Below are positions 5,851 to 50,881 of a stretch of DNA of 64,000 nt, one piece after another (the stretch's first letter is position 1; each line of letters opens with the position of its first letter). The stretch covers positions 90,814 through 154,813 of the forward strand of contig JBBHKE010002820.1 of the NCBI GenBank assembly GCA_037447655.1. Reading direction: 5' to 3'. This stretch comes from Zygnema cylindricum. Lineage: Eukaryota > Streptophyta > Zygnematophyceae > Zygnematales > Zygnemataceae. Position numbers and translations under genes: made by a program. The notes under the pieces were generated by a model. The model worked only from the letters and a program-made list of their open reading frames with translations, was not told the origin of the DNA and ran no database searches.

Positions 5851-6923
5851 TGTAGAAATTAATGTTTTTAAGCATTTTCTAGGTCTGGATAGAAATAAAG
5901 AAGCCGAGGCAGTCTACCTCTAACTTCTCTCTCTAACTCTCAAACTTGTCGCAGTCACTCAGAAATTGGAGAGGAAGCTAGAGCCATGGCTACCTAGGCT
6001 ATCCTCAGGTTTACGGGAAATTTATATTAGTATAGGGATTAATTACTAAAACGTATGTGCCGGCGACAGGATTTGATCCTGGTACCTGCCAGCCGTCAAG
6101 GAGAAGATAGCCAGTAGCCTTAGCCGTTAAGTCTAGAAGTACTGTTACATAGTATATAGTACGATAATGATTTAAACATGTACACGTAGGATAAATCATT
6201 TAACTATAACTGTAGGATACATAGATATGGTAGTGTAAAAGTAAGAATTGCGGTACGGATAACAAATCAATACCGCGCGTTGATTTCGTAAGCGAAACAA
6301 ATACCGCGCATTGATTTCGTAAGCGAAACAAATACCGCGCATGTATTTATTACGGCTACGATCAAATGCGAGTTTAATCGGACGGCCGGAATTAGCGCCG
6401 AGATCTTGGATGGAGAATTCGGCGGTTTGTGGGCATCGCCACATCGATGACACGTGGCGATGTAACATTGGAGCACGGCATCTCCGAGGATTAAAGGAGC
6501 GAATCCGGATATTCCACGTGTGGACATTTAGGCCATGTCGTACAATGTCCGTACATAAAGTACACCGGCAGCTGTACTTTTGCGTACGGAACAGTAATGT
6601 GATTGGTTCCGTACATCAGTAGATAGAGTCTGTGAGAGAGATAGGACTTAGAAAAATTAGAAGATAAGACCCACTCTCTCAGAGAGCTTCTATACAAAAG
6701 GTCAACTTTGACCCTTCATAACTTACTGCTCAGGGGAGCAAATTCAGAGATTCTTTTTGCTATCGACTCAGGGGAGTCTTCCCTTCACAGGGGTGAAGGT
6801 GGTCAGAGTTTTTGTCTGCCAGGGTGGCAGTTATTTTTGCTTAAACACAAAGGGGTGAGGATTATCCTAGAGGCTTCTTAGAAGCTGTTCACTCTGAGGA
6901 CTTATGGAGGTCTCAAAGTTTCA
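5851..6923 (+). repeat. 5' LTR of copia element A1
   Basis: This 1,073-base LTR starts TGTAGAAATT and ends GTTTCA directly before a GGTTATAGGCCC primer site. It is recognised because an inverted relative lies at 15229-16276 with matching ends. It holds an antisense tRNA-like module, CACGTG G-boxes near 6450 and 6515, and a palindromic GTACGG/GTACTTT region near 6538-6615. The last 20 bases carry the gag start codon (ATG at 6904). No 3' partner LTR was found because A1 is truncated at 10633. Confidence 0.85.
6050..6140 (-). other. Antisense tRNA-like module in A1 LTR
   Basis: On the minus strand the module has a box-A-like string TTAACGGCTAAGGC followed after about 40 bases by AGGATCAAATCCT (complement of 6068-6080). 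This can form a T-arm: a CAGG/CCTG stem with a 7-base loop ATCAAAT, like the tRNA T-loop and Pol III box B. It sits antisense to the LTR. The same module is present in the solo LTR, in both E LTRs and, more diverged, in A3. Confidence 0.5.
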
Positions 6924-10633: not shown

Positions 10634-10904
10634 AAGATTGCGAGCCAACAGATTGGAATAATTTACAGTATCCAGCGGGTACCACTAGAAGCTTGAATCC
10701 TTACCGTGGACCGGCCAAGGATTCCATCCCAGTCGGATCTTCTCCGCTACAGTCACCCTATCCTACTCATCAATCTCGGTTTATGGGTACGCCCGAACCC
10801 AGATCTGGTCTTACTCACACAGATAGAACCACATCATCCATCTCTTAGTCCTATTCAGTCTATTCGGTGCTATTCAGACTAATAGTGGTCCCTTTAGTGT
10901 GGAC
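10634..10904 (+). other. 5' untranslated region of gypsy element G (partial)
   Basis: Sequence between the A1 break and the first gag ATG at 10905. I find no LTR end, primer site or match to the 3' flank of G, so the 5' LTR is missing or unrecognised. Short CTATTCAG/CTATTCGG strings repeat near 10851-10878. Confidence 0.4.
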
Positions 10905-11944
10905 ATGGCCTCTTCCATGGACACAGGAGGAGGTAGAAATCAGTTTTGTTTTTAAGGGCTAAAGGACACTATTTCCTTGTCGCACTTCCAGATGCTTTTT
11001 GATATCGAGATGCGCGATCTCGCATTCTTGTATCGAGACCGTTATGACTTACGGGTATCGTTCTCTCTACTAAGGCGATACCTAAGGGGATCCGCCCTAT
11101 CTCTTTACACTCAGAAATATGCAGCGATTTGCGCAATGACTGAAATGGCACCTGCCTTTTCGGGATTGCTAGCCATAATTGGCAACCTGTAAATTCTTTT
11201 CTAACCCACGGTTCTCGCAGTTTATAACTCTTCCAGAAATGAGATCTCACCAAAGATACCAAAGATTCCTCATCAATTCGCAGTAGCACCTCGAGTAACA
11301 ATACTGGCTCGGGCAGCTATGTTGGTTCCCTTACGGGATCCGGTATCATTTGTTTTTAGCTCGCTTCAGGAGGAATACAGAATGCACAACCCCGATGAGG
11401 TTAAAGAACTAATGAATTTTGAACGCAAACCAGGCGAAACTGCTCCTGCATTGTGATCATGTATGGAAACCTTACGTGAAGCCCTGCCTGACCTAATGTC
11501 GGATCCAGAGGCAGTACAAAAATTAGTGGGACAATTTCCCACCCAATCTCGGCGTTTCATTCAAAGTCATCTAACTGAAGCATATGGCCTAAAATTCAAC
11601 TTCGAGCACGCTGCAGAATATGCCCTGAGGTATGAAATATAGACCAGCTGGTGGGTTGCTCACGAGCGGCCTAAGCCATCCCCTAGGGATCCCCAGAATC
11701 CAAATCCGAATTCAGATCTTAACCCGTGCACATGGCCAAATCCCAAATTTGCGAGAATCTCGGCTATGGGATCTCTCCCAACAACCCCGGGACGCGTATT
11801 TGCTTCCGGTGGGGTAACACAGGTCAAGATGCACGCAGCTGTCTAAATAAGACAGCTACGTGTGCTCATTGTAACCAAACAGGTCATTATATTCACAGAT
11901 GTCACATTAAAAACCCTAATTTCAGTTATCAAAATCAAATCTGA
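10905..11944 (+). pseudogene. gag: Gypsy G gag with zinc knuckles
   Basis: The ATG at 10905 opens MASSMDTGGG; one stop later the same frame continues to 11190 (FLYRDRYDLRVSFSLLRRY). A second block (about 11340-11640) contains EEYRMHNPDEVKELMNFERK and PTQSRRFIQSHL, typical of a helical gypsy capsid. The nucleocapsid end has two zinc knuckles: a damaged one (CFRWGNTGQDARSC, with the second Cys and the His replaced) and an intact CAHCNQTGHYIHRC (about 11863-11904). Several stops and frameshifts show it is dead. Gag would bind the element RNA and form particles. Confidence 0.75.
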
Positions 11945-12540
11945 AATGGCGGTAAACCTGCCCGCTCGGCAAAATTGGTCACTACACCTAAAGGTGTAGA
12001 GAAAGACACACCTCCTAGAATCAGCCGGAGGTATCGAGACAAAGTCGAGATGCAAGCTACCGTTGCGGCCATGATGAAGGAGCAAGCTACCGTTGCGGCC
12101 ATGATGAAGGAGCAGTTTGCCGCGTTGATGGCGCAGGTCAAACTGCAATTATCTGGAATGCCTCGAACCATGGTTCACATACCCTTCTTTGCGGGCTGAT
12201 CTCCACGAGAGTGAACTTTTCAACAGCGGGCAGCTCAGTTCAAAGGGAGTCCCGATTCATAATCGAGAGTCAAATTCTATTAACACCTGTATCCCATTAT
12301 CCTTTGCTAAAGAACCATTCTAACCTATTCCAGAAACCGCCTTCAGCATCACGGCTGAGGCACTAAGAATCCTAGATAAGAACATTCAAGACACCAATAC
12401 GGTCAACGAGCGGTTATCAATACTGTCCACCATGCTTCGGGATCTGGTACTTGACACCAAATCGGTGGATCTGACTCAATGTGAGCAATCTGCACATGCA
12501 TTACAAGCCCTTCAAAATAACCGAAACTCACTCTCTCTTC
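11945..12540 (+). pseudogene. Gypsy G gag-protease linker
   Basis: Contains a 33-base perfect tandem repeat (ATGCAAGCTACC... / GAGCAAGCTACC..., about 12050-12115) encoding QATVAAMMKE twice, a predicted helical or coiled-coil stretch. A broken linker follows, with LDKNIQDTNTVNE-like sequence near 12375-12410. No catalytic motif was seen. Confidence 0.55.
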
Positions 12541-12945
12541 ACGGAATCACTCTTCAAGAGCGAGCCAGTCTTAGATCACACATAAGTTTTTGGGATAACA
12601 AAATAGGAGTATTCATAGTTAATGGGGTTGCTCTGGCATTACCTCTTATGGACATTGGCGCTAAACCAATTATCCTTGGGTCAAATTTTGCATTCAAAAT
12701 AGGTCTTACAACAGACAAATTATAACCTGGAACCACACGTTTGTTGACCTCTGCAGGCACCACAGGCACCACAGTACCTGTCCTCGGAATTACAAAGGAA
12801 CCACTCTGTTTCCAAATCCAAAGTCATTCAGAGACAGATTTCGCAGAGATATATGCCTACGCCTTGGTCACAAAGCGTAGTGATTATGAATGCCTCGTTG
12901 GCCAAGATGTGATTTTCCGCGCAGGGGGTGGGGGGGGGGGTTGAT
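12541..12945 (+). pseudogene. pol: Gypsy G retropepsin-like protease
   Basis: The segment at 12620-12700 reads VNGVALALPLMDIGAKPIIL. This fits the retropepsin active-site strand with D-T-G changed to D-I-G, followed by the usual small-residue/loop pattern. After one stop, VPVLGITKEPLC and YECLVGQDVIF correspond to the second half of the fold. The frame is destroyed at the G-run of 12924-12940 (five G, T, eleven G). It would have cleaved the Gag-Pol polyprotein. Confidence 0.6.
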
Positions 12946-12990
12946 ATGCATGATCAAACATTTTCGTACAGACCAAACAATTTTTTGAAG

Positions 12991-13115
12991 TGACTACAAC
13001 AAGTATGGGGGCTAGAGAGCGGAGGTGGAGGCAGGCTGTCCGTCCTTTTTCTTTTTCCTTTTATAAAACCATATTTAAACCTAGAAAATACTCTAGAAAT
13101 CTATAAATTTCAACA
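12991..13115 (-). mobile_element. LTR fragment of copia A/E type inside G
   Basis: The right end TTTCAACA and preceding CCTAGAAAATAC, plus TGACTACAACAAGTATGGGG on the left, match the terminal 130 bases of the E LTRs (right ends at 18154 and 21397) and the A3 LTR start. It is only the U3 tip of an LTR in reverse orientation. The protease-side frame of G resumes directly after it, so this is an insertion that later lost most of its length. Confidence 0.7.
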
Positions 13116-13330
13116 GTAGTTGGCATAGGAGCTGATATTCTTGAATCTTTAACCGCAGAAGAAATCTCGATAGATCCTCCGGGAAAACCATAATTATTAA
13201 GCACACCCGGATTTATCGTAAATTCTTTAGATTATGACCAACTTCATAAGTTCACTGTATCAATTCCTTTATTAAGCATTCAGGATCCACCCTCCATAAA
13301 AAAAGATTTGTGCGGGTTCTTGCCCATTAA
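13116..13330 (+). pseudogene. Gypsy G protease/methyltransferase junction
   Basis: The frame resumes as VVGIGADILESLTAEEI, continuing toward the methyltransferase through SLDYDQLHKFTVSIPLL and a proline-rich junction. No separate start codon or splice boundary is evident, which suggests one polyprotein. Confidence 0.5.
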
Positions 13331-14130
13331 TTGGAAACCGCTCAATTTGCAACCTCACCAAAATGGTCTAGATATCTTAGACCTTTTTGCGGGAATAGGA
13401 ACTTCACTCCTCTCTTGCCTACGAAATAGTCTTTGTATAAAGCATGACTATTCCGTAGATATTGACCCCTTCGCCAGACGCGCTCATTTGCATCACTATC
13501 AAGTCTTACACGAACAGGATTCCCATCTCTTCCCTCAGTCCGCGTTTCACGATATGCATTCAGCTTTCCCACAGGATATTCGGCAAGTAGGAAATCGTCA
13601 CTTAATGGAATAAGAACCAATCGATCTCCTCTTTGCGGCATGGGAATGTCAAGGTATGTCTAGGGCCAGGAAAGGGTTACGACTTGCGGATCCGCGTACT
13701 AAGTTGTTCTTCGAGGTGGTTCGTCTGATTCACTTCTTCCAAAAACTAGATCGTCCGTTCGGATACATCCTAGAAAATATCGCAGCTTATAATGATCCAC
13801 GACCCACGGTGCTCGCATATTACAAACGTATTAAATCATTGATTGGACCAGCGTTAGTCGTTGATGTCGCACGCCACGGTTCGCTAGCCCACCGAGTTCG
13901 TTCCAAGTGGACTAACCTGGTGGACATGGGCCGGCTCGGAGAAGCAAACCTCGTTGTCCGACCACCTAACCTCTTCATTCAGGATGCACTTCTTCCATTT
14001 TATAAGGTCCTGACATGTATATAAATAGACTATCCCCATGCATTTGGTCTTAACATTCTGGGTCAGCTACTACGTGCACTGCCTACACTCGTTGCACATC
14101 CACATTCTCACGCACACTCTCACAAGGTAC
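13331..14130 (+). pseudogene. Gypsy G cytosine-5 DNA methyltransferase domain
   Basis: Motif I DLFAGIG (13380-13400) is the AdoMet-binding loop. After one in-frame TAA (13611) the same frame reads the motif IV region LLFAAWECQGMS. The candidate catalytic Cys codon is at 13647-13649, but the usual preceding Pro is Glu. RKGL, KLFFEVVRLIHFF and motif VI YILENIA (Glu codon 13773-13775) follow, then LAHRVRSKWTNL (from 13887) at the position of the usual substrate-contacting Arg motif. After a frameshift near 14020, FGLNILGQLLRALPTLVAH is compatible with the motif IX-X end. The RKGL/FFE/RLIH pattern resembles DNMT3-type enzymes more than DNMT1 or CMT. It lies between protease and RT, so it belongs to the element. 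It would add methyl groups to cytosine; the stop, the frameshift and the lost Pro make this copy inactive. Confidence 0.8.
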
Positions 14131-14774
14131 CTGGCATACTTTAAAATACTCATACAGGCAAATTGGAAGAACCTATTGCTGCTGAACGAGAACATCTTTT
14201 ACATTTCATTCGAAGCACTATTGCCGCCCCAGGAGTCACCGAGCGGCAACGTTGCACCTTACTCGGTCGAGTCATGAATCCTCAGTCACTTTCATTTGTC
14301 TTGGGCATGGGATTTGCAGCCAGTCGATACGCACAGAACAATCCGTCTCAATCGGTTGGGGGGGGGCACACACCATGTAAACACAGAGCATCTAAGTCTT
14401 CACTTTCTCTCTGGGGTACAACCTTTGAACTCTATCTTTTCCCTTCCTCTGCTAAGTCTGATACAACGCACACTATTTATGATTTTTTGGTTCTTAGTAA
14501 CCTAAGTTGGTCTCTCCAGCATAGCATCCCAGCATACACGGCCGCTAGGTCTCAGGCACCAACAGAGGTATCTCCACACTGGACAGATGCATACCTGTCT
14601 AGAAGTTGGCATCACGTAGTAAACTGTTTGCACCAGCTCCGGGTCGAGTATGAGTTGGGTCACTCCTTGATAACGGACGAACAACTAGCGTTTGCACAAG
14701 CCATGGAAGCAATGACAATTAGTACTCCTGAAAAACCGAAATGGAAATTCGGACCTGTACTAAAAAAGACTTAA
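14131..14774 (+). pseudogene. Gypsy G unknown domain before RT
   Basis: An open frame of about 200 residues starting near 14163 (EEPIAAEREHLLHFIRS), containing SFVLGMGFAASRYAQN, a G-run (14358-14366), SRSWHHVVNCLHQLRVEYELG and an ending KPKWKFGPVLKK. It abuts the RT N-terminus. I recognise no catalytic motif. It could be the C-terminal part of the methyltransferase module, a tether, or an RT N-terminal extension. The middle part may be out of frame after the G-run. Confidence 0.5.
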
Positions 14775-15228
14775 TACGAACTTTTAGATGGAGTCATAAA
14801 CGGACATCTAGACGCATTCGCTTTCTCCATGAAAGACTTAACACGACACAACATGTACAGAATGTCGATTGAACTGGAAGATGAAAGACCCATATTCAAG
14901 CCCAAATATTGTCTATCAGAAACTGAATGGGAATTGGTCGACAAACGATGCCCGGAATTGGAAAGGGCAGGTCTGATTTATAGGTCCGATTCCACATTTG
15001 CGGCGCCCACCGTTATGCCTCGTAAAAAAGACGTAGAGGAAAATTTCACAGCACGTCGTATGTGTGGGGACTATCGAGAACTAAACTCACGTACGATCTA
15101 GGACCGACATCCAATGTCGTTGGTAGGGGACATATTTGATTATGTCGGAGGAGCTAAATATTTTAGTATTCTAGAGCTGCGAGAAGGGTTTGACCAATTG
15201 GAGATAGAGGAAAAGGACCGACAGAAGA
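14775..15228 (+). pseudogene. pol: Gypsy G reverse transcriptase, first part
   Basis: YELLDGVINGHLDAFAFSMKDL leads into the gypsy RT N-terminus: PIFKPKYCLSETEWELV, LERAGLIYRSDSTFAAP, MPRKKD and CGDYRELNSRTI. One stop is followed by HPMSLVGDIFDYVGGAKYF and EGFDQLEIEE. The frame is cut by the solo LTR at 15229; GAAGA at 15224-15228 is the left TSD. Confidence 0.85.
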
Positions 15229-16276
15229 TGAAACTCTAAGACCTCCATAAGTCCTTAGAGTGGACAGCTTCCAAAAAGCCTCTAGGATAATCTTGACCCC
15301 TTTGTGTTTAAGCAAAAATAACTGCCACCGTGGCAGACCAAAACTTTGACCACCTGCACCCCTGTGAAGGCAACACTCCCCTGAGTCGATAGCAAAAAGA
15401 ATCTCTAAATTTGCTCCCTTGAGCAGTAAGTTATGGAGGGTCAAAGTTGACCTTTTGTACAGAAGCTCTCTGGGAGAGAGGGTCCTATCTTCTAATTTTT
15501 CTAAGTCCTATCTCTCTCACAGACTCTATCTCCTGATGTACGGAACCAATCAAAATATAGTTCCGTACGCAAAAGTACAGCTGCAAGTGTACTTTATGTA
15601 CGGACATTGTACAACATGGCCTAAATGTCCACACGTGGAATATCCAGATTCGCTCCTTTAATCCTTGGAGATGCCGCGCTCCAATGTAACATCGCCACGT
15701 GTCATCTGATGTGGCGATGCCCACAAACCGCCGAATTCTTCTTCCGCGATCTCGGCGCTAATTTCGGCCGTCCGATTAAACTCGCATTTGATCGTAGCCG
15801 TAATAAATACATGTGCGGTATTTGTTTCGCTTATGAAATCAATGCGCGGTATTGATTTCTTATCCGTACCGCAATTCGTACTTTTACACTACCATATCTA
15901 TGTATCCCGTTAACAGTTATAGTTAAATGATTTATCCTACGTATATATTTTTAAATCATTATCAAACTATATACTATGTAACACTACTTCTAGACTTAAC
16001 GGCTAAGGCTATCCGCTATCTACTCTTTAACGGCCGACAAGTACCAGGATCAAATCCTGTCGCCCGCACATACCTTTTAGTAATTAATCCCTTAACTAAT
16101 ATAAATTTCCCGTAAACCTCAGGATAGCTCACGTAGCCATGGCTCTAGCTTCCTCTCCAATTTCTTAGTGACTGCGACAAGTTTGAGAGTTGGAGAGAGG
16201 AGTTAGAGGTAGACTGCCTCTGCTTCTTTATTTCTATTCAGACCTAGAAAATACTTAAAAACCATTAATTTCTACA
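15229..16276 (-). mobile_element. Solo LTR of copia family A, reverse strand
   Basis: 1,048 bases with ends TGAAACTC...TTTCTACA (TG...CA), flanked by a perfect 5-base TSD GAAGA (15224-15228 and 16277-16281). It is the inverted relative of the A1 LTR at 5851-6923, including G-box CACGTG motifs, GTACGG strings and the tRNA-like module, which here reads on the + strand (about 15990-16075, box B-like AGGATCAAATCCT at 16047-16058). With no internal region it is a product of LTR-LTR recombination. It inserted into the RT of G. Confidence 0.92.
15990..16075 (+). other. tRNA-like module in the solo LTR
   Basis: CTTAACGGCTAAGGC (15994-16008, box A-like) and CCAGGATCAAATCCTGT (16045-16060; T-arm stem with a 7-base loop). 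The LTR itself is on the minus strand, so the module is antisense to it, as in A1. Acceptor-stem pairing is not obvious. Confidence 0.5.
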
Positions 16277-16919
16277 GAAGACTGCATTTTGGGGTGGTGA
16301 CGGACGTTGGGAATGTGTTGTCATGCCTTTTGGACTGAAAAATGCACCGGCGGTATTCCTAAAGGTCATGGACTCAATCTTGTGGGGATGTAAGTTTGCC
16401 CGCTGCTACACATCAAGGATTTGATAATCGCTTTGGCGAATATAGGGGAACATGCAGTCCATATAGAGTGGGTGTTGAAGGAATTAAAAAAGGTAGGACT
16501 TAAATGTCATCCTGCCAAATGTACCTTTGGGGCCAAAGGGGTCCCATACCTCGGGCATTTTATCTCATATGAGGGAATTACTCCATTAGAGGTCAAAGTG
16601 GAAGCCATTAGTAAACTATTTGCCCCAACTGATCTGACCACCCTGCGGGCATTTCTTGGATTGGTGAATAATTACCGTAGGTTCATTCCCGGTTTCAGTA
16701 CACTCGCCTCTCCACTGAATGAACTTTTAAAATAATCGGTTCCGTTCTCTTGGGGACCAACTCAGATAAAAGCTTTCCAAGGATTAAAGGACGCGCTATC
16801 CACTGCTCCAAACCTTCGTCCCCCAAATCATAAATTACCTTTTTGTCTACATACTAACTTTGGTAAGCCCGGTATTGTTGCTATCCTAACTCAACGTGAA
16901 CTCACAGTTGAGGAATATG
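16277..16919 (+). pseudogene. pol: Gypsy G reverse transcriptase, second part, and RNase H start
   Basis: Continues directly from the frame cut at 15228: [20 protein letters not shown]. The YxDD site (about 16405-16430) is ruined by a frameshift, and the first Asp of the DD pair is Lys (reads IKDLII). Thumb and connection follow: KKVGLKCHPAKCTFG, YLGHFISYEGI, LRAFLGLVNNYRRFIPGFS. One stop precedes the RNase H start. ATATG at 16915-16919 is the left TSD of element E. Confidence 0.88.
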
Positions 16920-18154
16920 TGAAATTCTATGGGCTCTATTGCCCACAGAATTTGCAGATCCAAAAGAAGCTAATCTAGATAGTGCCGACACCAAGTTGAT
17001 ATAAACCCAAATGAATGATCCTTGATAATCATAACCCCAATGCAACTTCACCCCTGTGAAGATAAGACCTTGTGTGTGCTCAGTTCCACCACAGAATGCA
17101 AAGCTTGAATATGTGTTTTGGATAGTATTCCCCACTTTGACTTTCCCATTGAATAATTGCCACTCTGACACGCAAAAACCTCTAACCGATTACACCCTGT
17201 GTAGCCTAGACTCCCTTGAGTCTGCAGCAAAAAGAATCACTGAATTTTCTCACCCGAGCATTAAGTTATGGTTGGTCAAAGATGACCTTTATAGTTACAA
17301 GCCTTATTAGAGAGAGGTACCTAAATATTACTAAGTCTTGGTCTGCCTACTCACGACTACCTACTACTAAACCCTAGTCCAATAGGAACACTATATAGTA
17401 CAAGAAGGTACAATGGGCGATGTACTTATTGTACGTCCATTGTACGACAAGGTCTAGAAGGTGACACCTGTCAAATCGGAAGCCATGGTTCCTCCTTCCA
17501 TCTTCTCCGGTATCAAATAATGTGGTCCCACATGGCACCGCGTGACGCTATCTCCGTATGCCGCCAAAATCTCACTTCGCGTGGTGGCTATAATGTCGGC
17601 CGGCCGATCAAAACATATTTTACACGCTTCAGATTTGCGTACATTCATGAATTGCTCCTTTTGGTTAGTCTGCTTTTAATTAGCTCCTGCGTTAATGTTT
17701 ATATATCGTTGAAACCTGTCACGTGTATCGTTTTGATAACGCCTTATTGGTTAAGGCTTTCCTCTACAAATATAACTATAGATCATGGTTCAAATCTGGT
17801 TTAAAGCAGTTTTTGGTTATTTGTTAGTTTGTTTGAACTCTCCACTTCTACACTTATAAATACCTATTGTACCCCACATATGCCATCGTTGACTCTAAGC
17901 TATAGGCTAGAACTAATGGCTATTATAGGATGGTAGGTACCAGGATCAAATCTTGATTCCGGCATATCCATTTTGGTACAAACTACGATTAGCCTATCAT
18001 CTTTAGACAGCCATGGCTCTAGCTCTCTCTCTAGTCTTCAGTGACTGCAACAAGTATGGGGACCGGAGAGATTTGAGCGAGAAACAGGTTGCCTTTGCTG
18101 ACTTACTCTATTTATATTTCCAATACAGACCTAGAAAATACATAAATTTCAACA
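16920..18154 (-). repeat. 3' LTR of element E (reverse strand)
   Basis: 1,235 bases, the pair of 20162-21397, with TG...CA ends and TSD ATATG outside the pair. On the + strand it holds two tRNA-like modules: about 17734-17812 (TTGGTTAAGGC, then GGTTCAAATCT at 17787-17797) and about 17893-17970 (GGATCAAATCT at 17943-17953). It also has CACGTG near 17720, GTACGTCCATTGTACGAC near 17430, and an inverted CCATGGTTCC patch. The LTRs differ at scattered sites, so E is not a recent insertion. Confidence 0.9.
17734..17812 (+). other. tRNA-like A/B-box module in E 3' LTR
   Basis: TTATTGGTTAAGGC resembles the box A of tRNA-Ser/Leu-type genes (TGGTTAAGGC). GGTTCAAATCT about 30 bases later matches the box B consensus GGTTCRANYCC at most positions. 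The copy in the other LTR is at about 20978-21056. It is antisense to the LTR. I did not find a full cloverleaf. Confidence 0.5.
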
Positions 18155-18175
18155 CTCCCCTTATTTTCTAGTATA
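18155..18175 (-). promoter_or_regulatory. Element E polypurine tract
   Basis: Reading the minus strand, AAAATAAGGGGAG lies immediately before the 3' LTR start TGTTGAAATTT. This is the plus-strand primer expected at the end of the internal region. Families B and D have the related GCTTTAGGGGAG at the same place. Confidence 0.75.
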
Positions 18176-18219
18176 CTTTCTTTTCAACTCCCACTAAAAA
18201 TTCATATAAAATAATTTAT

Positions 18220-18834
18220 TTATTTTCTTCTTCTTTTCTCTTTCTTCTTTCTTTTCTCCTCATAAAACTTTAAGTGAATACTCTCGTATTTTAAAAGGTC
18301 CATTAGATGAGCTGAAATAAACATTCCATCTTGCTGATCACACATTTTATTAAGCATACCATTTTCCATAAATCGAAGCAAAGACTTTGTCCCACTTATC
18401 TCTTTTCCATCCACACAGAATCCGATTTCCCTCTTGCAATTAAAAAAACCAGCCCCATCTCCAATCTTTAACACACACCTAGATGCTAACCCTTTTACAA
18501 GCACACCTTCATAAATGGCATCACTCCCATTAGTGATGTCAAAACCATTACCCCCCAAATTTATCGTTATATCAAGAGTCCTTACTAAGTTCCTCATAAA
18601 ATCTACATCTTCCGAACTCATATTTTTATCCATGATACTCACCCAATTTTCTGAACTTTCCTCACTCTCTCCCATGGAATTCTTTTCACTATCACTTTCT
18701 ATAATGATTCCCAAAGAGCATTTCTCTTCCCCTAAACTTTTCATTAAATATTTCTTTTCTCCCCTATCCTTTAAAACCCCCTCTAGTTTTACTTCTCCCC
18801 TTTCCTCCAAATCCGTTGAAGTTTCCCTTTCCAA
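18220..18834 (-). CDS. Element E unknown C-terminal domain X
   Basis: An intact frame of about 204 residues, in the same phase as the upstream gag and separated from it by a single TAA just upstream (18841-18843). E therefore probably encoded one Gag-X protein. The N-terminal third is charged (ERETSTDLEERGE, SDSEKNSMGESEESSENW). The middle is folded-looking: MRNLVRTLDITINLGGNGFD, VLVKGLASRCVLKIGDGAGF, IGFCVDGKEISGTKSLLRFM. The end is a very basic tail (KRKKKEKRRRK). It begins where protease starts in A1 and A3, yet I see no protease, integrase or RT motif. I do not recognise the family. It may be a captured host fragment, or a gag-derived domain used by a non-autonomous element. Confidence 0.55.
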   Translation of the reverse strand: MERETSTDLEERGEVKLEGVLKDRGEKKYLMKSLGEEKCSLGIIIESDSEKNSMGESEESSENWVSIMDKNMSSEDVDFMRNLVRTLDITINLGGNGFDITNGSDAIYEGVLVKGLASRCVLKIGDGAGFFNCKREIGFCVDGKEISGTKSLLRFMENGMLNKMCDQQDGMFISAHLMDLLKYESIHLKFYEEKRKKKEKRRRK

Positions 18835-20161
18835 CCAGTTTTATGTTTCCCAAATATTTATAGAATTATCCTCATTATTTTTATATTTCCCTTTTTCATT
18901 TATGTATCCTAGATCTGACTTTCTCATTTCTAAGTCATCCTTTCTACACTCATTGACTTCCTCATCATTTCTAACTCCCTGAAGTACCTCCCTTCCCTTT
19001 ACTTCCCTTATACCTCCAAAAGCACATCGTTGCTTTCGTGTAATTTCTGTGTACTTCTCTCTCTTCTCCATTCTACCGATGTGAAGAAGCTCCAAAATTT
19101 CTTCATCCTCTTTCTCCTCTTCCCATTCTTCCTCCTCTTTCACATTCCAACTTCTAAGTTCTTCCAAACAAGGACACTCCTCCATATAGTGACCCGGTTC
19201 TCTACAAAAGAAACAAATACCCTTTTTCAAAACTCCCCTTTCTTTTCCTCTCCCTCTCTTTCCACAAAAGTTGCGATTAGGTTTACCTTCGTCTTTCTTC
19301 CTCTCATCATGCTTCCGCTCGTCACCGCCAATCCTCTCATCACGCTTTTGCCAATCACCACCAGATGTAAATGCATTCACTCTGTCACTTCCCCTACGAA
19401 GCTCCAAAGTGCTTTCCCTCACAAGAATTATCCCCATGGTAATGCTCTAAGTCTATGAGGAGCCATCCATTGCCTGCATACGACAAATGATGTTTTTGTA
19501 CTTATCTGGGAGTTTCATGAGTAGTGTATTAATCTTTCTCTCCTCAGATTCTACATATCCCGCACTAGCAAGCTCAACATATAGCGCAGCAATAACATTG
19601 CAAAATTCTATCATGCTACCGCCTTTATAAACATAGGCATCTATTTATTGTTTTACTAATAGCTGCCTCTGAATAGTCTCACTCTTATAAATCTGACTTA
19701 GTGCTTCCCATATCTTTGAAGACTTAGTTAAATTTATAAGAGTGATAGCTATAGACTTAGATACGTTTCTAAGTATTAGATGTTTTGTTATGGTGTTGTT
19801 AAACTCCCAGATTTTAATGTCACTTCTTTCAGTTTTAATTGTAACCCCTACAAGTGGAACCATAGTCGAGAGCTTAGCTCCCCTCACCATCGGTGTTCCT
19901 TTTCCCTTCTCCCATTTTTCCCCTTCCATGGCAATGATTTTCCCTTCACCTTCCTTTGCATCTGAACTCCGGTTGGTTTTCTGGACAACCCCATATAATT
20001 CTCCATAGTGAGTTCCTCCAAAGCCTGGTGGAGGACACCTCTCTTGTCCCGAAACAATTCCCCATAAGTGCTTCTCGAAAAGCAATCCCTCCATCGTAAA
20101 CTCCCAATAAGTGAAGTCTGCTCCATCGAACATAGGCACCCTAGATGGTTAGCCCATAACC
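18835..20161 (-). pseudogene. gag: Element E gag with zinc knuckle
   Basis: Reads leftward from MPMFDGADFTYWEFTMEGLL (20139) through EKHLWGIVSGQE and NTITKHLILRNVSKSIAITL. After TAA/TAG stops it continues as VYKGGSMIEFCNVIAALYVE and LLMKLPDKYKNIICRMQAM. The last segment has the intact zinc knuckle CFFCREPGHYMEEC and the QRCAFGGIREV string that directly precedes protease in A1/A3. It is therefore a copia-type Gag close to family A. Three or so stops break it. No pol follows, so E must have relied on enzymes from other copia elements. Confidence 0.85.
20147..20161 (-). promoter_or_regulatory. Element E primer-binding site
   Basis: On the minus strand GGTTATGGGCTAACC directly follows the LTR end, the same half-tRNA(iMet)-like site as in the other copia families here. 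Confidence 0.65.
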
Positions 20162-21397
20162 TGAAATACTATGGGCTCCATTGCCCACAGAATTCGCAGA
20201 TCCAAAAAAAGCCAATCTAGATAGTGCCGACTCCAAGTTGATATAAACCCAAATGAATGATACCTTGATAATCAAAACCCCAATACAACTTCACCCCTGT
20301 GAAGATAAGACCTTGTGTGTGCTCAGTTCCACCACAGAATGCAAAGCTTGAATATGTGTTTTGGATAGTATTCCCCACTTTGACTTTCCCATTGAATAAG
20401 TGCCACCCTGACACGCAAAAACCTATGACCGAGTACATTCGTGTGTAGCCTAGACTCCCTTGAGTTTGCAGCTAAAAGAATCACTGAATTTGCTCACCCG
20501 AGCATTAAGTTATGGCTGGTCAAAGATGACCTTTATAGTTACAAGCTCTATTAGAGAGAGGTACCTAAATATTACTAAGTCTTGGTCTGCCTACTCACGA
20601 ATACCTACTACTAAACCCTAGTCCAATAGGAACACTATATAGTAGAAGAAGGTAGAATGGGCGATGTACTTATTGTACGTCCATTGTACGACAAGGTCTA
20701 CAAGGTGACACCTGTCAAATCGGAAGCCATGGTTCCTCCTACCATCTTCTCCGGTATCAAATAACGTGGCGCCATGTGGCACCGCGTGACGCTATCACCG
20801 TATGCCGCCAAAAGCTCACTTCGCGTGGCGGCTATAATGTCGGCTGTCCGATCAAAACATATTTTACACGGTTCATATTCGCGTACATGCAAGAATTGCT
20901 CCTTTCGGTTAGTTTGCTGTTAATTAGCTATTGCGTTAATGTTTATATATCTTTGAAACCTGTCACGTGTATCGTTTTGATAACGCCTTGTTGGTTAAGG
21001 CTTACCTCTACAAATATAACTATAGATCATGGTTCAAATCTGGTTTAAAGCAGTTTTTGGTTATTTGTTAGTTTGTTTGAACTCTCTACTTCTACACTTA
21101 TAAATACCTATTGTACCCCACATATGCCATCGTTGACTCTAAGCTATAGGCTAGAACTAATGGCTATTATAGGATGGTAGGTACCAGGAACAAATCTTGA
21201 TTCGGCATATCCATTTTGGTACAAACTACGATTAGCCTATCCTCTTTAGACAGCTAGGGCTCTAGCTCTCTCTGTAGTCTGCAGTGACTGCAACAAGTAT
21301 GGGGACCGGAGAGATTTGAGCGAGAAACTGGCTGCCTTTGATGACTTACTCTATTTATTTTTCCAATACAGACCTAGAAAGTACATAAATTTCAACA
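20162..21397 (-). repeat. 5' LTR of element E (reverse strand)
   Basis: 1,236 bases, the pair of 16920-18154. Right end TTTCAACA, then the right TSD ATATG at 21398-21402, matching 16915-16919 exactly. Removing E restores the RNase H frame of G at that point. It carries the same two + strand tRNA-like modules at about 20978-21056 and 21137-21213. Confidence 0.92.
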
Positions 21398-22110
21398 ATA
21401 TGTGGTCGCCTACGCTAGTAGAAGCAACAATCAAGCGGAATCAAATTACAGTAGTTACGAGGGAGAATGCCTTGCCGTGGTTTGGGGTATTGTGCATTTC
21501 CGACATTATCTCTATGGCCAGCCTTTTACACTTCTTACTGACCATCAACCATTGCATTGGCTCATGACCAATGACAAGCTATCCGACAATTTAGCCCGTT
21601 GGGCCCTAATTTTACAAGAATATGATATGAAAATATTTCATTCACCCGGGCTCCTTAGCTTGAATGCCAACGGGCTCTCCAAGAATCCTTTGCCCAACTC
21701 TTTTGATAATCGTGTACGACAAGATTTTGATGGCGAAACGGTTGCCTCCCTATTGGCTAGAGCGCATTTGATCTACAGTTTTTTAAAAACACCTACATAT
21801 CACAAAACCGAACATGATCTATGGCGAGAAAGCGCTTTGATTTTATTTCTATCTACTCAGTCTTTTCGAGCGGGCACCCTACTAGGGGAAGAGGAGCGCG
21901 TGCGGAAGAGGGCCCAAAGTTACTTGTGGATGGGGGGCTCACTTATCCATCTTCTCGCAGATGGAAGTCATCTCCATTTTCCTTGGCCGACGGAACAGCT
22001 ATCACTTATAAACCAGATTCATATTGACCTCCGACACTATGGCACCAAACGGAATTTGAGCTTGGTAGAAGCACGGTATTGGTGGTCAGGCGTGCAGGCT
22101 AACGTGGCGG
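21398..22110 (+). pseudogene. pol: Gypsy G RNase H and integrase zinc domain
   Basis: RNase H resumes in VVAYASRSNNQAESNYSSYE, then ECLAVVWGIVHFRHYLYG, LLTDHQPLHWLM and LARWALILQEYDMKIFHSPG. After about 130 residues comes the integrase HHCC-type domain: QIHIDLRHYGTKRNLS and EARYWWSGVQANV, with CSTC just after a stop (about 22123-22134). The 239-residue frame is open, one of the better kept parts of G. Confidence 0.88.
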
Positions 22111-22700
22111 GGGTGTTGTAGGAATGCAGCACATGTGATCAGCTACGAAATTTGTTTTCAAATCGGCAAACCACCCTTCAGCTCCTACCTATTCAAGGGC
22201 TCTTCTATAGATGGTCGTGTGACTTGGCAGGTCCCTTTTCAATTTCGCGAAGGGCCAAGCAGTACATCATGATTATGATCAAAAATTTCAGCAAATCGAT
22301 GGAAGTGGTGGCTCTCACACAGAAAACTGCCAAACTCAAAGTACTTACAAACTAAGGAATTGAGTTCCGCAACGATTTTCAAGAGATGTTTTACAAGGCG
22401 TTAATTGATCATCGGCGCACAAGTGGAGATCATCCTCAAGCAGACGGTTTGGCGGAAAGAGGTGTCCAAACCTTTAAGCGTGCTTTGCGTAAACGTTGCT
22501 TAGAAAAACAGATTACCGTGTGGGATGAATCATTAGGGTATATCGTCATGGGTTATCGAATGTCGGTAGAAGCTAGTTTGGAAAATTTCAGCCCGTATTA
22601 TATGTTATTTGGTCAAAATCAACTGCTAGGCAAAATTGTGCAGAAAGCCGTTAGTTTGCCTCTACCTCTTCTGTCATATGCTCTTTATCTGGAATAACTG
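22111..22700 (+). pseudogene. pol: Gypsy G integrase core
   Basis: Catalytic core with YRWSCDLAGPFS (first Asp, codon about 22221-22223). The second-Asp site reads GIEFRNDF after a stop, so that Asp is not obvious. DHRRTSGDHPQADGLAERGVQ carries the conserved Glu region, followed by FKRALRKRCL. Then YIVMGYRMSVEASLENFSPYYMLFGQ, the usual post-core helix. Two stops break it. It would insert the cDNA into chromosomes. Confidence 0.83.
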
Positions 22701-23240
22701 ACTAACCGAGCATTGCTCTTTGCTAGGGAAATGCCCATGGCTTTTGAAAATTTGCAGGTTGCTCAACACCGCGACTCCTTATGGTTCGCAACGACCTGCA
22801 GTGGCATTTACCGTCCTCAACAAAACCCTTGTGGGTGGGAGACTATGTCTATTTGCGACAACAAACCTTTGACACCCTCGACACGGATGTTTCACCTCAT
22901 ATTTTGAGAATTACAAAAATCGACTCTAATGGATTATTGATATTACAACAGGCAGACACGCGAACCTTACGGGAGCTTTCAAAGAATTGTGCCCCTTGCT
23001 ACCTACATGATCTTTCCCACAGCAGGGACCCGTGGCGGATGCCAATTACCGAGGCCACCGAGTGTCAGTTATGCCGATGGTCCAATGGAGAAACATCAAT
23101 GCTTCATCTGTGACTATTGCAACCTAGGATTTCATATGGAGTGTTTGGTTTCACCTTTGCACGCTGTCCCAGCTGGACAATGGTTCTGTCACAGATGTCG
23201 CGACTTGCCTGCTGTCCTTCCTAGCTCTCCTGTAGACTAA
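22701..23240 (+). pseudogene. Gypsy G integrase C-terminus with PHD finger
   Basis: Integrase tail WVGDYVYLRQQTFDTLDTDV (beta-rich, GPF/Y-like position), then ILRITKIDSNGLLILQQADT. A Cys4-His-Cys3 finger follows: CQLC (Cys codons 23063-23065 and 23072-23074); after a frameshift CDYCNLGFHMEC; then PAGQWFCHRC ending at 23198. The spacing CX2C...CX2CX4HX2C...CX2C is that of a PHD finger, a module that usually reads the histone H3 tail. It occupies the place where chromoviruses carry a chromodomain, which suggests a targeting role. The frameshift between the second and third Cys pair makes this copy dead. Confidence 0.75.
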
Positions 23241-23257
23241 GGAGCTGGGGGGGGGGG
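23239..23257 (+). promoter_or_regulatory. Gypsy G candidate polypurine tract
   Basis: AAGGAGCT followed by eleven G, 19 bases long with only C and T at its sixth and eighth positions... it lies 20 bases after the last reading frame, where the plus-strand primer of an LTR element is expected. The 3' LTR would start at 23258. Confidence 0.5.
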
Positions 23258-24438
23258 TTACAACCTTACTTACCCAATCTTGCTTATCTTTTGTTTTTTT
23301 CCAGTTCTTATGTTTGGCATATTTGTTTTTCCGTCGAATTCATTTATTGATTCTTGAACTATATATGCTTTGCATGCTAGTTGTTGTCGCAAATATTGTA
23401 CACATATGTTGATTTACTGCATTCTGGTGATTATCGGCCGCTCAAGCTAGGTTTATTGCATGTCATTCACAGTAGCCCAGCCATGCACGACAGCTATCAT
23501 GCCGTAAGATGTCGGCGGGTATAATTGAGCCGACCCATACTAATTATGTCTTGGTGACGTCACAGGTCTGTACGGGAGCGTACAGCAAGAAATACGGACA
23601 GGACAAGGACCGGATTATGTACTTATGTACGATACCGAGTGAACACTATACGGAACCCACATAGAACCAGACTGCGGTACGACATTGGATGCCCCAAACT
23701 CAACGGCTTCGAAACGTGATGGATGTCGAAGTCATGGACCCTTTGAGGTTGATGCATTTATTTTTCTTAGTGTAGGGAGGGTTTTTTTCCTCGAGGTGTA
23801 GATGTAAGGCATCCCGAGGCGGCCACGTAGCGGTCGTCTCTAGGAAATGGCACCGTTTGAGCATAGAAAATTGCACGCTCAGAGACAGATAGGAATTAGT
23901 GTAGCTGTACAAATAGCACAAAGCATATGATAAATGCCAAATGGCAAGTTTGAACCATTTGTAAATTTAACACGGGAATCGAACATTGTGAAGTTGTCGT
24001 TTTCTGACAATCTTTTCTTCTCGAGATTTGTCGAACTTGTGATGCTTAGGGTTTTTCACCTTAATATTTAGTCACAGGCTAGTTTTGCGTTAGGTTTCTT
24101 TTTCTTTTCGGACCATAGTTCATGCTAGTAACTGTCTCATAGCTCTTGATCTTCTCCTGTATCAAGTCCTTACCTAATTTGCCGGCGCAAGCCAGCTTGC
24201 AAGGTTTCCCTCCAGACTGTTGTCTTCTTATTGTAGAATATGAATTCTGTTGTGTGGGTTAAGTGGTTTCTTGTTGTCAGAACGTTGACCTTACAGTCTA
24301 GCTCTTCTTTTAGTCCAATCACGGAGAACACCGACTATCTCGGTTTCTTCGTCTGGTTGGAGGAGAGTTATCTTCTGCTAGTTGGACTTCTATAGGGAAT
24401 GCTCCGAACTTGACTTTCACGCAACTAAAATTTTGGGG
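23258..24438 (+). repeat. Candidate 3' LTR of gypsy G
   Basis: Starts after the G-run. Its first 229 bases (23258-23486) recur at 24439-24666, which suggests a unit of about 1,181 bases followed by a truncated second copy. U3-like features include TGACGTCA near 23557 and GTACGGGAGCGTAC near 23573. No clear TG...CA ends and no 5' partner were found, so the call rests on position and on the tandem repeat. Short open frames inside are not genes I recognise. Confidence 0.4.
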
Positions 24439-24666
24439 TTCCACCTTACTTACCCAATCTTGCTTATCTTTTGTTTTTTTCCAGTTTTTGTGTTTGGCAT
24501 ATTGGTTTTTCTGTTGGATTCATTTATTGATTCTTGCAGTATATATGCTTTGCATGCTGGTTGTTGTCGCAAATATTGTACATATATGTTGATTGACTGC
24601 ATCCAGGGGTTACCGTCGGCTCAAGCTAGGTTTAATGCATTTCATTCACAGTAGCCCTGCCATGCT
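24439..24666 (+). repeat. Direct repeat of 23258-23486
   Basis: Shares ACCTTACTTACCCAATCTTG, TATATGCTTTGCATGCT, GTTGTTGTCGCAAATATTGT and CTCAAGCTAGGTTTA with the upstream copy in the same order. It ends abruptly at GCCATGC, where reverse-strand copia RNase H sequence begins. Confidence 0.8.
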
Positions 24667-50653: not shown

Positions 50654-50881
50654 TGTTAGATTTCTTAGAAATTCGAGATTCGGCATGTCCCACACTTGGG
50701 AAAATTGAGCCGGCCAGGGTTCGAACTTGGGACCTTTCACTTCAGCTGCAAACGCACTACCACTGTGCCACTAGCTCAATGTAGAGACTGGCGAGTCCGT
50801 ACCGATTTATTACAAGCGGCTCGAGTATGGATATTCCATATTCTACCCCGTATTGGACCGGCTTCAAGTGCGAATCTAACA
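50654..50881 (+). mobile_element. TRIM-like solo LTR carrying a tRNA-like sequence
   Basis: A 228-base insert absent from B1, B3 and the other copies. Ends TGTTAGATT...AATCTAACA are perfect 9-base inverted repeats and fit LTR termini (TG...CA). The flanks GAAGA (50649-50653) and TAAGA (50882-50886) form a 5-base TSD with one mismatch. Near the left end CATGTCCCACACTTGGG resembles the TCCCACATTGG string common in angiosperm LTRs. It contains a 75-base tRNA-like sequence on the minus strand. The small size suggests a solo LTR of a TRIM-type element. The alternative is a SINE, but the TG/CA ends and 5-base TSD argue against that. Confidence 0.75.
50705..50779 (-). other. tRNA-like sequence, anticodon possibly CTG
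   Basis: Reading the minus strand, TTGAGCT pairs with GGCTCAA as a full 7-bp acceptor stem (one G-T). GCAC/GTGC can form a D stem around AGTGGTA. TTTGC/GTGAA (with wobbles) encloses a 7-base loop AGCTGAA. CCAAG/CCTGG encloses the T-loop TTCGAAC. Box A TGGCACAGTGGT and box B AGTTCGAACCC are good Pol III promoter matches. The base before the anticodon is G rather than U, so it is more likely tRNA-derived than a working tRNA gene. Confidence 0.6.

Follow-up and report, generated by a model that had tools for sequence, protein, structure and literature searches.

The closest described system is KnitGypsy-Dnmt3 of the charophyte Klebsormidium nitens, an LTR gypsy element whose Pol ORF also encodes a Dnmt3-related cytosine-5 methyltransferase (MTase; de Mendoza et al. 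2018, PMC5890265). According to the consulted sections of that paper, the element combines gypsy domains with repeats like those of a DIRS element, exhibits Ka/Ks values below 0.2, and has key MTase residues that are reported to be conserved. The cloned domain yielded no methylation in yeast, a result regarded as inconclusive by its authors, and SymbioDIRS-Dnmt3 of Symbiodinium, which also carries a Dnmt3-type MTase in Pol together with a reverse transcriptase (RT) and has repeats in the order A-coding-B-A-B, established de novo CG methylation there. The same sections raise slower transposition as a possible host benefit. MTase-encoding transposons are stated not to be present in land plants such as tracheophytes in the part of a further paper available here (PMC6338049). 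Retrotransposons are usually targets of DNA methylation, yet the lineage described below retains a methyltransferase of its own.

The window, i.e. the whole stretch of 64,000 nucleotides analysed here (G000:C2114:90814-154813, in an assembly of 352.8 Mb and 2689 contigs), encodes a DNMT3-type cytosine-5 MTase at 13368..14320 (+), in the pol frame of a Ty3/gypsy element and between its protease (PR) and RT. With KnitGypsy-Dnmt3 it shares a Dnmt3-related MTase in the gypsy Pol of a probable charophyte, purifying selection and DIRS-like split repeats. Since gypsy domains are combined with DIRS-like repeats as in KnitGypsy-Dnmt3, the element very likely belongs to that kind as judged by description, which does not in itself prove common descent. 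The first-pass annotation had proposed that the domain order may be undescribed; given the K. nitens element, novelty lies at most in the details. These include a different genome with at least 150 scored matches, two diverged families (family A, which contains the window copy, and family B), a PHD finger after the integrase (the term PHD occurs 0 times in the main text of PMC5890265, as far as available) and a Glu-Cys-Gln (ECQ) active site in family A, for which KnitGypsy-Dnmt3 was compared by description only. SymbioDIRS-Dnmt3 differs in being a tyrosine-recombinase DIRS element, whereas the present lineage has an rve integrase and, in the single copy read at either end, TG...CA termini with a 4-bp duplication. 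Within the matches listed among open-licence PMC papers, no title or abstract described an element of this type from another streptophyte. The AlkB-like domain of certain orchid gypsy elements (PMC9289625, seen in part) is a different accessory domain, and these elements were rejected as relatives.

The methyltransferase domain and its element in the window

The MTase domain was delimited by Pfam searches, solved relatives, reading frame and alignment. The stop-free piece 13614-14021 alone matched PF00145 (DNA_methylase) with an E-value of 3.5e-6 and 27.1 bits, above the curated cut-off of 22 bits. The stop-free piece 13194-13610, searched alone, had no PF00145 match, and the stretch 13194-14021, read through one TAA, reached 7.9e-10 and 39.1 bits; in open copies elsewhere in the genome the profile scored 48.8 (L015, family A) and 52.4 bits (L017, family B). 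The best solved relatives by sequence in the PDB were DNMT3A chains (E 1.3e-9; HhaI 0.017), which were matched at 7.8e-11 by L015 and at 3e-14 by family B. The window contains the motifs DLFAGIG (I), WECQG (IV), LENI (VI), HRVRSKWTN (VIII) and LLGRVMNPQSLSF (X); in an alignment with phage enzymes motifs I, VI, VIII and X follow in order, an arrangement that is not rearranged, unlike that of DRM enzymes. By its closest solved enzyme and its motif order, the domain is assigned to the DNMT3 class. A tblastn search against phages matched 211 of 50,697 records at E<=0.01, all below 60% identity and with a best E-value of 3e-10 among the 20 of 211 matches listed. The phage MTases align mainly across motifs I to VIII, and motif X (TERQRCTLLGRVMNPQSLSF) was located at about 14238-14310 in an alignment with six phage enzymes, four of which hold the C-terminal end.

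The first-pass annotation had claimed a DNMT3-like cytosine MTase between the PR and RT of a gypsy element. PF00145 above its cut-off and DNMT3A as the nearest solved enzyme bear out the domain, and its placement was confirmed in the window and in sister copies. The annotated end at 14130 proved too early, although the domain lies where claimed, as it reaches about 14320; because motif X lies beyond 14130, part of the 'X' region assigned between MTase and RT is itself methyltransferase.

In-frame TAA codons at 13611, 14022 and 14142 break the domain. Over 12324-15160 the pol frame contains 10 stops, and the other two forward frames contain 52 and 58. All five stops in 13116-14774 are TAA, and a recoded TAA was therefore considered; it was rejected because, across 36 family A copies, the MTase pieces contain 17 TAG, 10 TGA and 5 TAA stops. 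An AlphaFold model of the single read-through MTase sequence had a pLDDT of 33.6.

The remaining parts of the element lie on the forward strand unless indicated otherwise. The gag region (10645..11944), recognized by DNA match to L023 from 10644 and to L015 from 10872 (79%), is frame-shifted, contains a weak CCHC knuckle near its end (PF00098 in the open copy L015: 6.1e-4, 20.2 bits versus a cut-off of 20.8) and is 5'-truncated at its junction with a Copia pol remnant near 10,640, as located by eye and from the starts of the DNA matches. The protease region (12324..12941), in the same frame as the MTase, contains MDIGAKP (MDTGAKP in relatives) and had no Pfam match in the window; the corresponding stretch ahead of the MTase was located in 32 other family A copies, with 50-79% identity to the window, and Asp_protease_2 matched L015 at 0.0011, below cut-off. 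A linker without Pfam match (14321..14771) separates the MTase from the first part of RT (14775..15223), which has no Pfam match by itself. This part was identified by comparison with the 31 other family A copies that contain it, in which the best matching piece is 70-87% identical in 30 cases and 43% in one; an RVT_1 match is present in L015. The second part of RT (16271..16735; RVT_1 0.0007 and 2.1e-5, both below cut-off) follows a 1.05-kb insertion (15224..16270) that DNA comparison showed to be absent from L015 and L016. This insertion is largely an inverted copy of sequence elsewhere in the window (5864-6923 versus 15229-16262, ~1 kb, 92-94% identity). RNase H is likewise divided into a first part (16736..16921; RT_RNaseH_2 8.5e-11) and a second part that continues into the start of the integrase H2C2 zinc domain (21394..22118; RT_RNaseH 3.8e-28, Integrase_H2C2 6.3e-5, below cut-off) by a 4.47-kb Copia-type insertion (16922..21393, minus strand) with 1.24-kb direct repeats (16920-18154 and 20162-21397, 94.8% identical) and a copia gag on the minus strand (Retrotran_gag_2 6e-7). 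The integrase core (22122..22694) is broken by a stop (rve 0.069, below cut-off, compared with 2.5e-12 in L015). A C-terminal PHD finger after the integrase, also noted in the first pass, was recovered above cut-off at 22941..23237 (PF00628 1.2e-6; 2.9e-10 in L015), with its N-terminal half frame-shifted. With three in-frame TAA in its MTase, two nested insertions and a lost 5' end, the window copy is dead.

Elsewhere in the window, 31764-59216 contains many repeated stretches with Copia-like reading frames, apparently several Copia copies, and 235-1700 and 2453-2908 are extended tracts of low complexity, made up of CCCAATTT-like units and runs rich in GA. A tRNA-Gln (CTG) at 50705-50778 is the sole tRNA found in the window. 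The stretch G000:C1832:10374-10712 is 100% identical to the window's second RT piece, perhaps as a haplotig or duplicated assembly stretch.

Copies across the genome, selection and origin

A search of the genome with the window MTase core gave 1166 candidates and at least 150 scored matches, 65-100% identical and including the window, some of which may be haplotigs. PF00145 gave 782 candidates, of which at least 123 were scored, all above cut-off and including at least one host-type gene (L013). After L011 and L032-L034 were dropped as repeats of copies already counted, 36 different family A copies were compared, most of them at loci extending only 1.5 kb each way; 33 of them have PR upstream and 32 have RT downstream, with 29 having both and 7 one of the two, and in none of the 36 did PR or RT lie on the wrong side or strand. 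Family B carries the MTase at the same place, with an RT match in seven of nine loci, and the RT pieces of the two families are only about 34-39% identical. Long open frames are present, the longest comprising 2,395 codons. The genome search for copies with the same domain order proposed in the first pass recovered the open copies L015 and L017, whose separate pieces yielded the Pfam order protease, DNA_methylase, RVT_1, RNase H, H2C2, rve and PHD, with protease below cut-off in both and PHD at 0.0045, below cut-off, in L017. As read from these profiles, the order is the Ty3/gypsy arrangement of PR, RT, RNase H and rve integrase.

Sister gypsy copies lacking the domain, which the first-pass annotation had named as a sign of accidental insertion, do exist, but mostly as deletions or truncations. 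Among the best 150 of 2453 RT candidates, an MTase precedes RT in the same orientation in at least 89, at a distance of 1.5-2.0 kb in 76 of these. Sixteen of the 61 copies without a listed MTase were examined: some of the catalytic core remains in eight, five retain nothing but the C-terminal (motif X) portion, and three (L066, L070 and L076) have no MTase part. Other sequence lies upstream of the motif X part in L072 and L068, a run of N lies upstream in L077, and L065 reaches the edge of the examined stretch. The partial cores, deletions and truncations argue that absence of the MTase is mostly secondary. In L071 (G000:C2216:584500-586500), motifs I-VIII were deleted in frame with the C-terminal part retained and the rest open, including a frame of 827 codons around RT. 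As this copy lost the core yet stays open, the domain may be dispensable for copying.

The MTase core is under purifying selection. Median dN/dS among the 36 family A copies was 0.172 in the first MTase piece (mt1; 351/353 pairs below 1) and 0.12 in the second (mt2; 466/466), compared with 0.174 for RT (315/315) and 0.176 for the protease (402/406), based on non-independent pairs with dS >0.05 and at least 60 codons. Among seven subfamily representatives (20 pairs each), median pN/pS was 0.163 and 0.157 in the MTase pieces and 0.084 in RT, which thus is more constrained than the MTase at this level. Stop-free sequences were found in 24/36 family A copies for mt2 and in 11/36 over all three MTase pieces.

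In a phylogenetic tree, families A and B group together in a single clade (100/99 support, but just 84/69 for family B), separate from one DNMT3A row and from 16 enzymes of phage or bacterial type; the DNMT3A row sits on a long branch, and the tree carries a warning that long branches meet. Between motifs II and IV both families have an insertion that, as judged by eye, is absent from the phage enzymes. The clade, the shared insertion and the diverged RTs would fit one old capture followed by co-divergence and do not indicate a donor; the capture of a land-plant DNMT3 suggested in the first pass is not shown by this topology. Protein searches for eukaryotic relatives gave none at E<=1e-3. A search with an alignment of mostly phage enzymes produced 7957 hits, and wherever the best 120 of these state a source, it is a phage or a bacterium; no K. 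nitens sequence was among the protein-search matches listed (the best 120 of 7957 in this search). Candidates of polyprotein length included no relative at E<=10, and none was found in viral_contigs.

An altered active site and its competing explanations

WECQG and its cysteine, seen in the first pass, are present in the window, but the active site reads ECQ, not PCQ. In family A the motif IV proline is replaced by glutamate in 36/36 copies, window included (codons GAA 31, GAG 5), and the catalytic Cys is present in all 36. These copies had been selected for their resemblance to the window or PF00145; six further family A copies found through RT have Glu in 6/6. A degenerate WECQGM pattern had 175 exact matches in the genome and its reversed control none. 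Family B has Pro-Cys-Gln in 9/9 loci, which represent eight copies (L012 and L017 being one copy), and in an alignment gathered with mostly phage sequences, database relatives have Pro in 51/51 and Cys in 50/51. With broken copies included, family A has motif I Phe in 32/32 and Gly in 24/32 copies read, motif VI Glu in 34/36 and Asn in 35/36, the two motif VIII Arg in 33/36 and 29/36, and motif X Asn replaced by Arg in 32/33 read. Within the matches listed among open-licence PMC papers, no title or abstract reported an ECQ DNMT3. A RID/Masc1-like enzyme was considered as a possible source of the ECQ and rejected, as RID is described with a PCQ motif IV and a changed motif VI in the part of the source consulted (PMC6709928).

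The window copy is a decayed member of a large Ty3/gypsy lineage in which at least one insertion is recent. For this lineage our best explanation is a Gag-Pol with a PHD finger and a DNMT3-type MTase, the latter acting on the element's own nucleic acid, followed by host silencing after insertion; we consider it about equally probable to be right or wrong. The MTase would be made as part of Gag-Pol, enter the particle with RT and act there on the nucleic acid of the element. In family B (PCQ) the likely product would be CG-methylated cDNA, by analogy with SymbioDIRS-Dnmt3, which made CG methylation in yeast (PMC5890265, in the sections consulted). The family A enzyme would most likely still methylate C5 of cytosine, but with an altered base recognition or on a different substrate such as, possibly, RNA or an RNA:DNA hybrid, and its ECQ active site makes self-methylation uncertain. 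The PHD finger probably guides integration via histone tails. After insertion, the host would silence the copies by CG and CHG methylation, and silenced copies would decay partly by C-to-T change. This explanation is favoured by the constant domain order, the purifying selection, the retained catalytic residues, the recent insertion, the activity of S. pombe Dnmt2 and the CG and CHG transitions. Against it stand the failure of the KnitGypsy-Dnmt3 domain to methylate in yeast, the predicted inactivity of OsDRM3, the changes at motifs X and I in family A, the stronger constraint on RT among subfamilies, the open frame of L071 and the raised transversions.

The family A domain may be either an altered-substrate enzyme or a conserved pseudoenzyme. 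That the lineage retained, under purifying selection, a DNMT3-type enzyme whose PCQ became ECQ, either as a C5-methyltransferase with a new substrate (e.g. element RNA or an RNA:DNA hybrid) or as a pseudoenzyme that manipulates host methylation, has in our estimate an even chance of being correct; either reading, if true, would give a methyltransferase of mobile elements a role not seen before. A catalytically dead but conserved domain, similar to DNMT3L and DRM3, could bind nucleic acid or host methyltransferases and so block, divert or recruit host methylation on the element. We regard this as possible but tentative: Glu precedes the catalytic Cys in every family A copy read, the motif X Asn is changed as well, and the motif IV proline, described as invariant, is reported to make contact with the target cytosine, with OsDRM3, which has the Cys without this proline, predicted to be inactive (PMC2965745, as far as consulted). 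DNMT3L and DRM3 also resemble family A in conserving a DNMT3-class domain without the Pro-Cys pair of motif IV. However, several catalytic motifs changed in DNMT3L and the DRM3 clade (PMC2965745, same part), whereas family A retains the Cys, the motif VI Glu and motif VIII Arg pair in most copies, and purifying selection. Furthermore, Dnmt2 (Pmt1) of S. pombe, in which the residue before the catalytic Cys is likewise no longer proline, still methylates tRNA (PMC5372726, in the part available), although it has serine rather than glutamate and is a tRNA enzyme of another family. Because family A retains the Cys throughout and the motif VI Glu in most copies, and because S. pombe Dnmt2 is active, we favour altered catalysis over a dead domain in this family, though only moderately.

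Two further explanations concern the presence of the domain itself. The MTase could be a passenger, retained chiefly because it benefits the host or contributes to the structure of the particle, with cDNA methylation having no part in transposition, as would agree with the in-frame loss of the catalytic core in L071 and with the slower transposition raised as a possible host benefit in the consulted sections of PMC5890265. The low dN/dS of the core and its retention across two families with such diverged RTs are hard to explain on these terms, and we consider a passenger role improbable. An accidental host DNMT fragment in one gypsy copy, or a chance motif match, might have been suspected from the window copy alone, broken as it is by stops and insertions, but is refuted, with a residual probability that we regard as negligible, by the at least 150 scored matches, PR and/or RT flanking the MTase in 36/36 family A copies, a second family with the domain at the same place, and dN/dS far below 1. 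With so many copies, open frames, a copy with identical repeats and both PCQ and ECQ versions, the function of such enzymes is directly testable.

Terminal repeats and a possible host methylation footprint

The 3' end of the window element consists of split terminal repeats on the forward strand: B1 (23254..23486), A2 (23487..24434), taken as the stretch between B1 and B2, pieces of which match A of a copy on contig C1344 at 75-81%, and B2 (24435..24665), which by comparison with B1 is 90.1% identical to it and forms the end of the element. A G-rich run lies just before B1 and at its start. In the C1344 copy, A1 (85514-86444) and A2 (94981-95911) are 931 bp long and 100% identical, and B1 (94737-94978) and B2 (95912-96154) are 99.6% identical. 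The order is thus A1-internal-B1-A2-B2 rather than two plain LTRs, and the window retains B1-A2-B2. TG...CA ends flanked on both sides by TTGG, a 4-bp duplication, were found in the C1344 copy (1/1 copy with both ends read), in which no purine run directly precedes A2. The C1407 copy is 5'-truncated, no right-hand repeat was found where one was looked for in the C783 copy, and the split repeat was not detected in the one family B 3' end examined. The 100% identical 931-bp repeats of C1344 show that at least one insertion in the lineage is recent; the 90.1% identity between B1 and B2 marks the window copy as an older insertion.

Host-type genes were also searched for in the genome. Land plants have both GRAS genes and LEAFY, and GRAS genes are also present in Zygnematophyceae. 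GRAS had 27 matches on 12 contigs, most places comprising at least two pieces, as introns would produce; the SAM_LFY profile had 0 matches in the genome, a weak negative since no control gave a match, and the RuBisCO large subunit likewise had 0. A CMT-like exon matched 4fsx, which we take to be maize ZMET2, with 102 bits, versus 51 for the best other DNMT1 chain. This exon and the GRAS matches indicate a streptophyte host, probably an alga and conceivably a zygnematophycean one.

In 29 copies, compared with the copy with identical terminal repeats and thus with subfamily divergence mixed into the figures, transitions affected 10.8% of CG, 11.0% of CHG, 5.3% of CHH and 4.5% of A/T sites, and transversions 4.9%, 3.6%, 2.7% and 3.1%, respectively. 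As the CG and CHG excess is partly seen in transversions too, not all of it is deamination. The pattern suggests past CG and CHG methylation of old copies, for which enzymes of the host were presumably responsible, and the C-to-T excess in these contexts suggests that the host methylates the same copies that carry the MTase.
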